Origin: a bacterium
Lineage (GTDB): Bacteria; Caldisericota; Caldisericia; Cryosericales; Cryosericaceae
NCBI GenBank assembly: GCA_021373025.1
Contig: JAJFTL010000064.1
Span: 1 to 64,000 of the forward strand
DNA length: 64,000 nt
Direction of reading: 5' to 3'
Each line of letters opens with the position of its first letter. The stretch's first letter is position 1. The notes under the pieces are model-generated. The model was not told where the DNA came from. It was given only the letters and a program-made list of their open reading frames with translations, and did no database searches. Made by a program: the position numbers and the translations under genes. Of the stretch, positions 25,476 to 64,000 are shown in pieces.

Positions 25476-25650
25476 AACTGGTCCTCCTTTTCAAGTTCAA
25501 CTCCTGCCCTGGCAGTTCCGGTGGAATGCTGCCGGCCTCGCTCCAAGCGCTGCTCCCGGGCACTCTAATCGTATCATACGTGAACGTCGTTTTTTTGCAA
25601 TGCTGCATTCGGACTGTCCGGTCTGTCCAGAATCACGGGCCAAACTCAGG

Positions 25651-25692
25651 ATTGTGAATCCCTTGGGGTCAGGCACCTTGGGGATTCACAAT
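25651..25692. repeat. 43-bp-family palindrome, copy A (divergent core)
   Basis: Arms ATTGTGAATCCC / GGGATTCACAAT match the other family members; the core differs (TTGGGGTCAGGCACCTT) from CTTGTACC-A-GGTACAAG. It lies at the 3' end of the endonuclease IV gene and supplies its TGA stop (25688-25686). The rest of the 25476-25650 gap shows no gene. Confidence 0.85.
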
Positions 25693-26546
25693 TCAGTGGG
25701 GGGAGGGGACGGGAGCAGCGAGCGGAGCAGCGCGAGGTTGCGTGCGAAGGCGGGATCTCCGCCAGGCGTCTCGAGGATGCCGGGGACGTTGGCGAAGTGC
25801 CGATCAGTCACAAAGAGGCGAAACGCTTCCAGGCCGATCTCTCCCTGTCCGATTTCTGCATGCCGGTCAACGGTTGAACTCAGCGCGCCCTTGGAATCGT
25901 TGAGGTGAAAGGCATGAACATTGTCCAGGCCAAGGACATCGTCCATCTTCTGGACAGTGGTGGCATATCCTTCAGCCGTACGGATGTCATAGCCTGCGCC
26001 GAAGATATGGCAAGTGTCGATGCAGAATCCGACGCGGTCTGGGAAGTGGCAGCGCTCGCGGATGGCTGCCAGTTCCTCGAACGTGCCACCCAGCACTGTG
26101 CCCGCACCCGTGGTGGTTTCAAGCAGGATGCTCGTGTGCTGCGTACGGGAGAGCCGGAAGATGTAGTCGAGGCTGCTCGCAGCAACATCGATTCCTTTTG
26201 CGCTTCCCTGGCCACGATGAGCCCCGGGGTGGACGACGAGCCATGGGATCCCCAGACGCTCCGTCTTGCCAAGGTCGGTGGCCATGCATTGCCGCGACTT
26301 GGCTAGTAAGTCTGGCTCAGCCGCCGAAAGATTGACCAGGTAGGCCGCATGAACTGTTCCCGGTGTCAGGCGATACTGTTGGACTTCCCGTTTAAAGCCG
26401 GTGATCTCATCCTTGGATAGTGGTGGCGCGTGCCACTGCAGCTGGTTCTTGGTGAAGATCTGAAACGTCTCGCACGTACAGGCGGATGCGCGCTGAGGTG
26501 CAAGTGCAACTCCTCCGGCGATGGAGACGTGTGCTCCCAGGATCAT
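25686..26546 (-). CDS. nfo: Endonuclease IV (deoxyribonuclease IV)
   Basis: A 286-residue AP endonuclease of the TIM-barrel family, cutting 5' to abasic sites with three zinc ions. MILGAHVSIAGGVALA, HAAYLVNLSA, LVVHPGAHRGQG, LLETTTGAGTVLGG, VGFCIDTCHIFGAGYDI, FHLNDSKGALSSTVDRHAEI and GILETPGGD contain the His, Glu and Asp ligands. The start overlaps the radical SAM stop by four bases (ATGA). The last codons read TEL-TGA inside repeat copy A, so the C-terminus may have been reset by the repeat. Confidence 0.95.
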   Translation of the reverse strand: MILGAHVSIAGGVALAPQRASACTCETFQIFTKNQLQWHAPPLSKDEITGFKREVQQYRLTPGTVHAAYLVNLSAAEPDLLAKSRQCMATDLGKTERLGIPWLVVHPGAHRGQGSAKGIDVAASSLDYIFRLSRTQHTSILLETTTGAGTVLGGTFEELAAIRERCHFPDRVGFCIDTCHIFGAGYDIRTAEGYATTVQKMDDVLGLDNVHAFHLNDSKGALSSTVDRHAEIGQGEIGLEAFRLFVTDRHFANVPGILETPGGDPAFARNLALLRSLLPSPPPTEL

Positions 26547-52929: not shown

Positions 52930-53805
52930 ATGAGCCTGCAGTTCGAGGGAGTCACGCAGCACCTGTGGGTGGCAAAGTGTCGGAGATATGCCATGAACAC
53001 CGGCATCGTGCACGATGCAGGACATGCTGCGCTCATTGACCCTGCACTGCTTCCCGACGAGGTCGAGGAGATTGCTGCCTTCTGCGAGCAGAAGCATGTG
53101 CAGGTCGACACCGTCATCATCACCCACCACCACTGGGACCACGTCCTGGGTGCCGCACGGTTTCCTGGGGCGCACCTGCTGACGCACCAGGCGTATCTCG
53201 GGCAGATGGCGCTCGATCTGGAGCATACGTGGAGTGCAATCCGGCGCTTCTATGCGTCGGAGGGCGTTGCCGTTTCCGGCTCGTTCAGCCCACCCTTGCC
53301 CGACCTGACCTTCGACCGCATCACCGGGCTCATGGTCGGCGAGTTGCGCGTTCAGCTTTTTCATACGCCCGGCCATGCGCGCGATCATCTCTCAATCTAC
53401 GATGCCGAATCTGCGTTTCTCTGGGCAGGCGACCTTCTGAGCGATCTGGAGATCCCCTTCATCAGCTACCGCCTCGATGCCTTTGAGCGCACCCTTGCTA
53501 TGTTCGCCGCCATGGACATCCGTCTGTTGATTCCCGGCCATGGCAACAGCACCCGCGACCGCGCCGAGATCGCACGGCGCATCGCCGACGACCGCGCGTA
53601 CCTGTCCGAACTGCGCAGGCTGATCGAACCCGTTGTCCTCCGGGGCGGTTCGGTGCAGGATGCAACTGCTGCCTGTGCCGGCATGGTCGTCCGCAATGCC
53701 GCCGACAATGCCGAAGCGCACGCTATGAACGTCGAACAAGTCTTCCTCGAATGCGGTGGCTCTGCCCCTCCCAACGTTCTCCTTGGCTGGTCCCGCGAAT
53801 TGTGA
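52930..53805 (+). CDS. MBL-fold metallo-hydrolase
   Basis: A 291-residue protein of the metallo-beta-lactamase fold. The zinc motif is THHHWDHVLGAA (HxHxDH), with further ligands in HTPGHARDHLSIYD and IPGHGNSTRDRAE. The glyoxalase II-like topology includes a C-terminal helical part. The last codons read REL-TGA, contributed by the repeat at 53798-53840. Substrate uncertain; hydroxyacylglutathione-like thioesters or other esters are possible. Confidence 0.9.
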   Translation: MSLQFEGVTQHLWVAKCRRYAMNTGIVHDAGHAALIDPALLPDEVEEIAAFCEQKHVQVDTVIITHHHWDHVLGAARFPGAHLLTHQAYLGQMALDLEHTWSAIRRFYASEGVAVSGSFSPPLPDLTFDRITGLMVGELRVQLFHTPGHARDHLSIYDAESAFLWAGDLLSDLEIPFISYRLDAFERTLAMFAAMDIRLLIPGHGNSTRDRAEIARRIADDRAYLSELRRLIEPVVLRGGSVQDATAACAGMVVRNAADNAEAHAMNVEQVFLECGGSAPPNVLLGWSREL

Positions 53806-53840
53806 CTCCCCTTGTACCAGGTACAATGGCATTCATAATT
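53798..53840 (+). repeat. 43-bp palindrome, copy B (upstream of RAYT)
   Basis: It has ends AATTGTGACTCC and ATTCATAATT around the core CTTGTACC-A-GGTACAA. The right arm is degraded. It supplies the stop of the MBL gene and lies 32 bases before the transposase start. The central A marks its orientation relative to copy C. Confidence 0.88.
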
Positions 53841-53871
53841 GATCATCTAGCACATCAAGGAGGCTGGTGAA

Positions 53872-54513
53872 GTGGGTAGAACGCCGCGCATCGAATATGA
53901 GGGAGCCGTGTATCACGTGACCAACCGGGGCAACGGCCAGGAGATGATTTACCGGGAAGAAGCTGACTGGAAGGCTTTCCTGGGCATTATGAGCGACGTC
54001 GTGTCGGAGTTTGGGTGGAGGATCTACACGTACTGTTTGATGGGGAATCACTACCACTTGCTGGTGGAGACACCTCAACCGAACCTGTCTCTGGGAATGA
54101 GAGAACTGGACCTGCAGTATACCTTGCGGTACAACTGGAGATACGAGCATTCGGGTCACGTGTTCCAAGATCGCTACTGGTCGGGGCTTGTCCTCAACGA
54201 CAACTACCTGATCGACGCGGCGAGCTACCTGCTGCTCAACCCGCTTCGGGCCCAGCTGGTCCAATCTCCGGAGGAGTGGCGTTGGTCGAGCTGCGCGGCC
54301 ATGGCCGGACTTGTCCCGCCGCCCTCATGGCTCGACATGGATTGGCTGCCTGTCGATTTCCGTGGTGCGACGGGGGATCCAAATGGTCCATTCCTGTCCT
54401 ACGTCCGGGAGTGCATCAACAAGCCGCGTCCAGCAAACCTGGAGAAGCAACGCCATCGCATGCGCAGAAATGTGAAGACGCTTGTACCTGGTACAAGAGA
54501 GATACACAATTGA
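53872..54513 (+). CDS. REP-associated tyrosine transposase (RAYT, Y1_Tnp/HUH)
   Basis: A 213-residue protein of the IS200/IS605-like single-strand nuclease family. The N-terminal block is GRTPRIEYEGAVYHVTNRGN. The HUH motif is MGNHYHLLVETP (His-Tyr-His). The catalytic tyrosine lies in SYLLLNPLRAQLV. RAYTs process palindromic REP elements and are usually single-copy domesticated genes flanked by inverted REPs, as here (copies B and C). GTG 53872 is preceded by AAGGAGG. The last 14 codons (TLVPGTREIHN-TGA) are encoded by the downstream repeat. Confidence 0.92.
   Translation: MGRTPRIEYEGAVYHVTNRGNGQEMIYREEADWKAFLGIMSDVVSEFGWRIYTYCLMGNHYHLLVETPQPNLSLGMRELDLQYTLRYNWRYEHSGHVFQDRYWSGLVLNDNYLIDAASYLLLNPLRAQLVQSPEEWRWSSCAAMAGLVPPPSWLDMDWLPVDFRGATGDPNGPFLSYVRECINKPRPANLEKQRHRMRRNVKTLVPGTREIHN
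54469..54511 (-). repeat. 43-bp palindrome, copy C (downstream of RAYT, inverted)
   Basis: CTTGTACC-T-GGTACAAG with outer ends AATGTGAAGACG / GATACACAATT. The central T is the complement of copy B, so it is inverted relative to it. It encodes the RAYT C-terminus and its end overlaps the TTG start of uvrB. Confidence 0.88.
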
Positions 54514-56555
54514 GCATCTTCAAGCTGAAAGCGCCGTTTGAACCATCGGGAGACCAGCCGGAAGCCATCGAGAAGCTGATCGCCGGCATCAAGGCGGGTG
54601 ACCGGTTTCAGACGCTGGTCGGCGTCACGGGTTCCGGCAAGACGTTCACGATGGCGAACGTCATCAAGGAGTTCGACCGCCCGGTCCTGGTCCTGAGTCA
54701 CAACAAGACGCTTGCCGCGCAGTTGTACAGCGAGTTCAAGGCGTTCTTCCCCGAGAACGCGGTCGAGTATTTTGTCAGCTACTACGACTACTATCAGCCG
54801 GAGGCGTATGTGCCGACGATCGACCTGTACATCGCCAAGGATGCCGACATTAACCAGGACATCGCGCGCCTGCGGCACTCGACCATCCGGTCGCTGATGG
54901 AGCGCAGGGACGTGATCGTTGTCAGTTCGGTCAGCTGCATCTATGGCTGGGACTCGCCGGAGGAGTACCGGGAGGGCCTGCTGACGGTGACGCAGGGCGC
55001 GTCCATGAAGCGCGACGACATTGCCCGGGCGCTGATCGGCCTGCGCTACGAGCGGGCAGAGGACATCGGCAAGGGCGGCTCCTTCCGCGTGCGCGGGTCG
55101 ACTGTGGAGGTTATGCCCAAGGAGACGGAAACCGGCATCCGCATACGACTCTCTGTGGACGGGACGGTCGAGAAGATCCAGGAGTTCGATGCGGGTTCAC
55201 GCCAGGTGCTGAGGGAGTACAGGGAGTTCATCTTCTTCCCGGCCGCGCAGTTTGTGACCAGCCCGGAGCGTATCGAAAAGTACATCGCGCTGATTCAGAA
55301 GGACATGGAGGAACGCATCCAGTATTTCAAGGCGCAGAACAAATTCGTGGAGGCGCAGCGCATCGAAGAGCGCACGAAGAATGACATCGAGATGCTGCGC
55401 GAGGCCGGCTACTGCACGGGCATCGAAAACTACAGCCGCTACTTCAGCGGCCGTGATCCGGGTTCGCAGCCCTACACGCTGCTGAGCTTCCTGCCCAAGG
55501 ACTTCCTCCTGTTTGTGGACGAGTCGCACATCAGCGTCCCCCAAATCCGCGGAATGTTCAACGGGGACCGGCAGCGCAAACAAACGCTGATTGACTACGG
55601 CTTCCGCCTGCCGTCTGCGCTGGACAACCGGCCGCTCACGTTCGACGAGTTCATGCAGTACGTCACGCAGGCGATCTTCGTCAGTGCTACACCTTCGGAA
55701 TATGAATATCAAGTCTCCGGCCAGGTGGTCCAGCAGTTGCTGCGTCCGACGGGCCTCGTGGACCCACTGATCGAGGTGCGCCCCAGCAAGGATCAGGTCC
55801 CCAACCTCATGAGCGAGATTCGGCAGCGTGTCGAGAGGCAGGAGCGGGTGCTTGTGACGACGCTGACCAAAAAGAGTTCGGAGCTGCTGGCGGACTACCT
55901 TCAGCAGGAAGGCATCAAGGCGCAGTATCTGCACAGCGATCTGGACGCACTTGCCCGTGTGCACATCCTGCGCCAGCTGCGCTCCGGTGACATTGACGTC
56001 CTGGTGGGTGTCAACCTGCTGCGCGAAGGCCTGGACCTGCCAGAGGTCTCGCTGGTGGCGATTCTGGACGCGGACAAGGAAGGGTTCCTGCGCAGTGACA
56101 CGTCGCTGCTGCAGACCATGGGCAGGGCTGCCCGGAACGTGTCTGGTACGATCATCATGTACGCGGACGAAGTGACAGGCTCCATGAGTCGCGCGATGGC
56201 CGAATCACGCCGACGGCGTGAGTATCAGCTAGCCTATAATGAGCAGCACGGCATCACACCGCAGACGATCCACAAGGCGATCTCCGAGCTGATTGACCTG
56301 CCCTGGCGCCAGCCGGACGAGATCGAGAAGCTAGGAGGAGATCTGCTGGCGAAGATGTCTCCCACTGAGGTGCAGGCCCTGGTCATCCAGCTGAACGAAG
56401 AGATGCTGGAACATGCCCAGTCGCTGGAGTTCGAGGAAGCGGCGGCGCTGCGCGACAAGATTGCCCAGCTGCGCGCATTGCTTATCGGCGAGAAGCCGCC
56501 CAGAGCGCAAGCTCCAGGCCTCATGCCCCATATGGGCAGGCACAAGGGGCGCTGA
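54510..56555 (+). CDS. uvrB: Excinuclease ABC subunit B
   Basis: A 681-residue nucleotide excision repair helicase-like protein. From TTG 54510 it reads SIFKLKAPFEPSGDQPEAIE, matching the exact UvrB N-terminus (MSKFKLVSPFKPTGDQPEAI). Walker A is GVTGSGKT, the damage hairpin is YYDYYQPEAYVP, the helicase motifs include FVDESHISVPQ and GRAARNVSG, and a C-terminal UVR domain is present (MLEHAQSLEFEEAAALRDKI). The TTG overlaps the RAYT stop (TTGA). The frame is open further upstream only as a shadow of RAYT. AGAGAG lies about 12 bases upstream. Confidence 0.96.
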   Translation: MSIFKLKAPFEPSGDQPEAIEKLIAGIKAGDRFQTLVGVTGSGKTFTMANVIKEFDRPVLVLSHNKTLAAQLYSEFKAFFPENAVEYFVSYYDYYQPEAYVPTIDLYIAKDADINQDIARLRHSTIRSLMERRDVIVVSSVSCIYGWDSPEEYREGLLTVTQGASMKRDDIARALIGLRYERAEDIGKGGSFRVRGSTVEVMPKETETGIRIRLSVDGTVEKIQEFDAGSRQVLREYREFIFFPAAQFVTSPERIEKYIALIQKDMEERIQYFKAQNKFVEAQRIEERTKNDIEMLREAGYCTGIENYSRYFSGRDPGSQPYTLLSFLPKDFLLFVDESHISVPQIRGMFNGDRQRKQTLIDYGFRLPSALDNRPLTFDEFMQYVTQAIFVSATPSEYEYQVSGQVVQQLLRPTGLVDPLIEVRPSKDQVPNLMSEIRQRVERQERVLVTTLTKKSSELLADYLQQEGIKAQYLHSDLDALARVHILRQLRSGDIDVLVGVNLLREGLDLPEVSLVAILDADKEGFLRSDTSLLQTMGRAARNVSGTIIMYADEVTGSMSRAMAESRRRREYQLAYNEQHGITPQTIHKAISELIDLPWRQPDEIEKLGGDLLAKMSPTEVQALVIQLNEEMLEHAQSLEFEEAAALRDKIAQLRALLIGEKPPRAQAPGLMPHMGRHKGR

Positions 56556-60818: not shown

Positions 60819-60861
60819 AATTGTGAATCCTCTTGTACCAGGTACAAGAGGATTCACAATT
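60819..60861. repeat. 43-bp palindrome, copy D (perfect)
   Basis: A perfect 21-bp inverted repeat with one central A: AATTGTGAATCCTCTTGTAC... mirrored exactly. It is the best-preserved copy. It lies between the DUF364 stop (eight bases away) and the MFS start, the only copy not supplying a stop codon. Confidence 0.92.
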
Positions 60862-63491: not shown

Positions 63492-63534
63492 AATTGTGAA
63501 GCCCCTTGTACCAGGTACTAAAGAAATTCACAAT
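63492..63534. repeat. 43-bp palindrome, copy E
   Basis: Ends AATTGTGAAGCC and AATTCACAAT around CTTGTACC-A-GGTACTAA. It sits between the sigma factor and the membrane protein gene. It supplies the TGA stop of the sigma gene (63530-63528) and lies nine bases before the next start. Confidence 0.88.
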
Positions 63535-64000
63535 GTGTGCGGTTCTGCAACAGGCGCCTCTCTTGAAGGCGTCTCCAGCTGCTTGCGCAGCTTGCTCTTG
63601 GCCCGGCTCACGGTGGGTCCCACGGAGTTGACCGCGACCATGAGAATATCCGCTATCTCGCTGTAGCTCTTGCCTTCGACCACCGACAGCAGGAGGACAT
63701 CCCTGCTGCGCTGGTCCAGCTGGCTGAGCGCGCGGCTGACCGACCCTTTGAGTTCCTCCTGCAGCGCTTCGGCCGGAACGTCGGTGTTGCCCGTCAGAAG
63801 TTCGACAGTCTCGCCGTCCAGCTCCAGTTCCGTCGGCACAGTTCCATGCCGCTTGCGCGACATGTTGACCGCCGTATTGTGAACAATGCGGTACACCCAC
63901 GCGCTGAAGGTCAGGTGCGGGTCAAATCCGGCGAGGTTGCGGTACACCTGCAGGAACGCCTGCTGGACGACATCCTCGGCTTCCTGCCGCCCGACAAGGC
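63528..64000 (-). CDS. ECF-type RNA polymerase sigma factor (5' end outside window)
   Basis: The frame remains open to the window edge. Region 2 reads LVGRQEAEDVVQQAFLQVYR followed by NLAGFDPHLTFSAWVYRIVH. Region 4 reads LSQLDQRSRDVLLLSVVEGK with the helix-turn-helix YSEIADILMVAVNSVGPTVSRAK. The linker (PTELELDGETVELLTGN) is typical. Ends REAPVAEPHTL with the stop supplied by copy E. It probably pairs with the membrane protein just downstream. Confidence 0.93.
   Translation of the reverse strand, partial: LVGRQEAEDVVQQAFLQVYRNLAGFDPHLTFSAWVYRIVHNTAVNMSRKRHGTVPTELELDGETVELLTGNTDVPAEALQEELKGSVSRALSQLDQRSRDVLLLSVVEGKSYSEIADILMVAVNSVGPTVSRAKSKLRKQLETPSREAPVAEPHTL

Follow-up and report, generated by a model that had tools for sequence, protein, structure and literature searches.

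The TIRYTs are RAYT homologues associated with GGGGWSAS inverted repeats, and in the TIRtrons some of the terminal inverted repeats (TIRs) are self-complementary and form moderately abundant families (Di Nocera 2013, PMC3733652). They are considered here together with the Y1 transposases of subclass 2.1, which corresponds to RAYT group 1 (PMC6006769). In the 'orthoswitch' of REPs, old repeats decay while new ones spread, and its mechanism, according to the paper that described it, can only be guessed (Nunvar 2013, PMC3686654). Here, we compared these systems with a locus of Candidatus Cryosericum (Caldisericota). The locus lies in a stretch of 64,000 nucleotides (the window) on contig C55 of G000, a 1.6-Mb assembly that is 97.9% complete, and the comparison set consisted of 15 genomes of the genus, G000 included. 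Copy counts derive from pattern and model searches of these genomes.

A transposase gene between an MBL-fold-like gene and uvrB

The locus and the five palindromes of the window are composed as follows:

52930 to 53805, + strand: MBL-fold-like hydrolase gene (ORF), upstream of the transposase gene, with its TGA stop inside the left arm of palindrome B
53872 to 54513, + strand: putative RAYT/TIRYT-type HUH transposase gene, 213 aa, GTG start (from Pfam Y1_Tnp, REP_Tyr_transpos, 4er8 and the alignment)
54510 to 56555, + strand: uvrB (ORF), with a PF12344 match at G000:C55:56157-56282
25650 to 25693, + strand: palindrome A, with a GGGGTCAGGCACC centre and arms as in the others
53798 to 53840, + strand: palindrome B, left flank of the transposase gene, AATTGTGACTCCCCTTGTACC-A-GGTACAATGGCATTCATAATT (covariance model E = 4.8e-15)
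54468 to 54511, - strand: palindrome C, on the right side of the gene and inverted with respect to B; codes for the C-terminal residues and the stop of the transposase
60819 to 60861, + strand: palindrome D, a perfect 43-nt palindrome (position cluster 11, shared with four other species)
63492 to 63535, + strand: palindrome E (position cluster 10, shared with five other species)

The gene between palindromes B and C is an intact HUH transposase gene, as the initial annotation of this DNA had proposed. Its product matched Pfam Y1_Tnp (E = 1.6e-8) and the full length of the NCBIfam model REP_Tyr_transpos (E = 3e-19; 69.3 bits, below the curated cutoff of 80), and its sole sequence match in the PDB was E. 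coli TnpA-REP (4er8). The motifs of the RAYT superfamily (class 2 Y1) were found as HYH at residues 60-62 and the catalytic Tyr119 in Y-L-L-L-N-P, and both histidines and the tyrosine are invariant in the alignment. Palindrome C contains the probable TTG start of uvrB, which overlaps the stop of the transposase gene (TTGA).

In sequence, the transposase appears closest to the TIRYTs, away from the RAYTs of GTAG REPs. As in the TIRYTs, the HUH/Y1 protein carries Y---NP, and its nearest relatives outside the genus (42-51% identity, spread over many phyla) are flanked by inverted GGGGTCAG repeats, found upstream in 51 and downstream in 41 of 87 loci, where about 2 would be expected on each side (2.2 upstream). 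It would thus resemble TIRYTs (PMC3733652) and Y1 subclass 2.1 (PMC6006769), except that it lacks the tail and that the motif is altered in the flanks of the window gene. Specifically, the protein has 213 aa against a median of 283 aa among the relatives, and the C-terminal HTH (HTH_23/28 or Bac_DnaA_C) is absent from it and present in the paralogues L042 and L052. GGGGWSAS was found in the flanks of the G013 orthologue and in the right flank of those of G005 and G011, not in the window's own flanks; many Cryosericum species have lost it, with GTACCAGG/GTGCCAGG in its place. Furthermore, unlike in TIRYTs, the Cryosericum TIR is a 43-nt palindrome, of which there are about 20 copies, most of them at positions that are conserved. 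RAYT-like genes in other families of the class likewise lie between palindromes of their own, which follow the same design and have GGTGCCWGGCACC centres.

The slot between the MBL-fold-like gene and uvrB holds a transposase orthologue in 8 of the 15 genus genomes (G000 included; 85-92% identity), and palindromes flank the gene on both sides at all eight loci. The named genomes with an orthologue are Candidatus Cryosericum hinesii, odellii and septentrionale. The upstream gene, whose 'MBL' label rests on an HHxxDH-type motif, has an orthologue at the same place in eight genus genomes (71-75% identity). In G005, only the start of uvrB is visible, at the contig end. The transposase showed a dN/dS (omega) of 0.07-0.16 across eight species and a dS within the range of its neighbours, the MBL-fold-like gene and uvrB, which indicates that the gene has been inherited vertically and kept under purifying selection. 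Horizontal acquisition of the gene was rejected on the same dS values, with the exception of one recent exchange between G005 and G011. At these two loci (L049/L051), the transposase coding sequences are 94-100% identical and the upstream genes 79-91%, and the comparison suggests that the gene and the right palindrome were recently exchanged at the same locus.

The transposase does not look like an active mobile element, which would be expected at differing sites and in several near-identical copies: each genome has one orthologue at one locus. It shares the HUH/Y1 catalytic core with IS200/IS605 elements. Unlike these, the Cryosericum gene sits at a fixed locus, as a single orthologue per genome, under purifying selection with conserved synteny, and no TnpB was seen beside it. 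In G002, G003, G006, G008, G010, G012 and G014, we found no uvrB (PF12344), MBL-fold-like gene or transposase. All seven are MAGs that are less than 90% complete, and asnS is present in all of them.

Number, placement and age of the palindromes

All five palindromes reported for the window were found, with coordinates that agree to 1 nt or better with those of the initial annotation, and its description of B and C as mutually inverted copies with opposite central bases (A versus T) was borne out. It had also predicted a genome-wide family, and pattern searches allowing mismatches recovered about 20 copies in G000, not only the five. The core TTGTACCWGGTACAA with at most one mismatch occurs at 11 places (reversed control, 0), the arm AATTGTGAATCCC with at most two mismatches gave 27+22 matches (control, 2+1), and 20 whole copies were obtained when both outer arms were required. 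With Candidatus Cryosericum as the host, this is a REP-like system in a non-proteobacterial lineage, as had been suspected.

The palindromes are 43-45 nt long and are found mainly at gene 3' ends or between cistrons. They occur singly, except for the pair around the transposase gene. Palindrome D folds as ssDNA at -20 kcal/mol (z = -9.75), and palindrome E lies between a co-directional sigma-factor-like gene and its downstream partner. Palindrome E and the copy at the asnS-leuS junction (C57:53925) nearly fill their co-directional intergenic gaps, leaving only a few bases to the next Shine-Dalgarno-like sequence. Since they nearly fill these gaps, such palindromes may affect differential expression within operons. 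A known RNA family was rejected, with no Rfam match in the window, and so were intrinsic terminators, none of which was called at the flanking copies, where there is no T tract.

Like the GTAG-REP/RAYT systems of E. coli (TnpA-REP) and Pseudomonas, this system pairs a transposase gene that is present once and inherited vertically with inverted palindromes and with others dispersed at gene ends. Unlike them, the ends of the palindrome copies have no 5' GTAG/CGTC tetranucleotide, the copies are singlets rather than REPIN doublets, they number about 20 rather than hundreds, and their positions are conserved across species. An assignment to GTAG/CGTC REPs or REPINs was rejected because tag and doublets are missing. 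The RAYT/REP arrangement of the initial annotation stands for the RAYT-superfamily HUH/Y1 gene and its inverted palindromes, but not for a classical GTAG REP family.

Most palindromes are old sites and not recent insertions, because they occupy orthologous intergenic positions across species. By clustering of flanking proteins, 16 of the 18 dispersed copies of G000 have partners at orthologous positions (a few via one flank only), and the proteins flanking shared sites are mostly 50-90% identical between species. At the asnS-leuS junction, which was located without using the palindrome, 12 of 14 genomes carry it; the palindrome is decayed in G006, and the junction is rearranged in G009. One apparently G000-only copy (C51:32112) has the same sequence as C34:33218, and its site is occupied by an ordinary hairpin in other species. 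A second copy, C41:7810, is also apparently specific to G000.

The covariance model matched palindromes in 14 of the 15 genus genomes. Outside the genus, within the class, it gave only 0-2 copies per genome, which indicates that the arms are genus-specific. The initial annotation had tied the number of palindromes in relatives to the presence of the gene. Part of this was observed: a model built partly from gene-bearing genomes gave 0-19 matches in genomes without the gene versus 22-38 in those with it (Mann-Whitney p = 0.0003; both strands counted). The palindromes nevertheless persist in genomes without a detectable transposase. Dependence of the palindromes on the gene is only suggestive, because the seven gene-less genomes are all incomplete MAGs.

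Two other RAYT subfamilies were observed. The second occurs across the genus (C51:1235 in G000, locus L110; L121-L129), has 30-34% identity to the window gene, and is flanked by DnaA-box-like TTATCCACAG; in most cases a hairpin of the GTCCCCGACAG type follows on the 3' side. The third (C36:269911 in G000, locus L042; L058, L059, L116-L118, L328, L331-L335) is flanked by GGGACGGTTCC/TGTAACA repeats, and in several species related repeats occupy the site of the G000 palindrome C41:7810. These other RAYTs were rejected as owners of the palindromes studied here, as none of the 26 genus loci tested (0/26) carries R1 palindromes.

Position-specific arms and a genome-specific centre

The centres of all palindromes change together between species and the ends do not, which is unusual among bacterial repeats. 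The sample of palindromes was full for G000, and for the other genomes it comprised those among the matches listed. With the central A setting the orientation, the 11 central bases among the matches listed read GTACCAGGTAC in the majority of copies from G000, G001, G004, G005, G007 and G010. They read GGGTCAGGCAC throughout G013 and, with few exceptions, GTGTCAGGCAC in G009, and the majority forms are GTGCCAGGCAC for G012 and GTGTCAGRCAC for G011. Centres are mixed in G000, G001 and G011, and the copies flanking the gene in G001 and G011 do not have the majority centre of their genome. Within the 12-nt centre, the site of the TIRYT motif reads GGGGTCAG in some species and GGTGCCAGG or GTACCAGG in others.

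Each position has passed on its own arms and flanks, and the 12-nt centre is genome-specific. Among the matches listed, agreement in the centre was 0.912 for pairs of copies at different positions of one genome, 0.836 for pairs at one position in different genomes and 0.839 for unrelated pairs (the background); the corresponding values were 0.890, 0.940 and 0.895 for the arms, and 0.28, 0.51 and 0.28 for the flanks. In the same sample (among the matches listed), a genome-specific excess was found only in columns -8 to +3, and a position-specific excess only at or below -11 and at or above +6. The probability of sharing a centre class, again among the matches listed, was 0.709 within a genome versus 0.358 within a position, a difference reached in 0 of 2000 permutations that preserve each position's make-up and do not model the species tree. 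The class statistic holds when genomes or close relatives are dropped, and the classes are scattered on the species tree, which argues against simple shared ancestry. G010 and G012, in which the gene was undetected, also have uniform centres (79 of 2000 permutations for this small sample).

Pairing of the inner stem exceeds that of shuffled sequences at k = 6-8 and 12, through different base pairs, so the hairpin has been kept. The four main centre classes can be arranged in a series whose neighbours differ by one or two bases, and coordinated point mutation under selection therefore fits the data as well as block replacement does. The stretch that evolves in concert falls on the GGGGTCAG motif of the transposase family, and this coincidence ties it to recognition by the transposase.

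Possible origins of the concerted centre

Judging from sequence comparison, the system is somewhat likely to be a domesticated ssDNA transposase of the RAYT superfamily, of TIRYT type, together with its recognition hairpins, which would have been rewritten or co-selected in place. The transposase gene has a fixed place between the MBL-fold-like gene and uvrB and has stayed intact, and a terminal inverted repeat would have turned into the 43-45-nt self-complementary hairpin, with the TIRYT motif as its central 12 nt. About 20 single copies occupy narrow gaps at gene ends or between cistrons, and most have done so since before the genus diversified. Rare new copies were also observed, and the apparently G000-only copy identical to another speaks for slow mobility. 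We infer that the protein reads the centre of the hairpin in single-stranded form and that, when the recognised variant changes, all copies would follow in place. This could occur through transposase-catalysed replacement of the hairpin tip, or through selection for continued recognition.

Either route would be an in-place version of the orthoswitch of Pseudomonas REPs. As in the orthoswitch (PMC3686654), orthologous RAYTs at the same locus have different classes of flanking repeats in related strains; unlike in the orthoswitch, the same dispersed sites of Cryosericum carry the new class in place. The more specific proposal, that the transposase itself edits dispersed hairpins by cutting the tip as ssDNA and replacing about 12-15 nt from a donor hairpin, is tentative and rather doubtful.

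Positions conserved throughout the genus, the sharp 12-nt concerted window and the persistence of palindromes where the transposase was not found would also fit the sites of an unrelated host protein (a regulator, or a nucleoid or chromosome-structuring protein). Its specificity would have drifted lineage by lineage, selection would have moved the sites, and the transposase would be incidental. We consider this unlikely: the concerted centre falls on the TIRYT motif, palindromes built in the same way also flank RAYT-like genes from other families in the class, and the sites lie mainly at gene 3' ends or between cistrons. That placement would suit hairpins acting as RNA, either as bidirectional terminators or as stabilisers of mRNA 3' ends and intercistronic regions, with tips that co-evolve via a shared RNA-binding factor or recombination. 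Stem pairing kept through different base pairs (k = 6-8 and k = 12) and the G000 copy that replaces an ordinary terminator-like hairpin point the same way. However, the flanking copies have no T tract and no terminator call, the window has no Rfam match, and the link to the TIRYT motif would be left unexplained, so an RNA function seems a poor prospect as the explanation.

Homologous recombination could homogenise the centres by gene conversion between copies, without the transposase. Gene conversion is a long-standing proposal for REPs, reportedly made by Higgins in 1988, and the recent exchange of the transposase gene between G005 and G011 would agree with it. But the tracts would measure about 12-15 nt in 43-nt repeats with only some 10 nt of conserved arm to either side, which is shorter than normal recombination tracts, and the right inner stem remains position-specific; we regard this account as improbable. 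Inverted flanking copies, dispersed copies and two apparently G000-only sites are consistent with the picture of the initial annotation, an ordinary and actively spreading REP family. Against it stand the low copy number, the singlets, the missing GTAG tag and the ancestral position of nearly all sites, and we give it very little probability. As the main account it was rejected because most copies occupy orthologous positions.

If the transposase does edit its hairpins, in-place editing would keep about 20 chromosomal sites identical to whichever sequence is recognised at the time, without insertion elsewhere. The system touches two open questions, namely how REP and TIR families change class with their transposase, and of what use domesticated RAYTs are to their hosts. 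Its orthologous sites can be traced across more than 10 species, and the arms provide an internal control for vertical descent. Thus, the switch becomes datable, the tract measurable, and the dependence on the gene testable.
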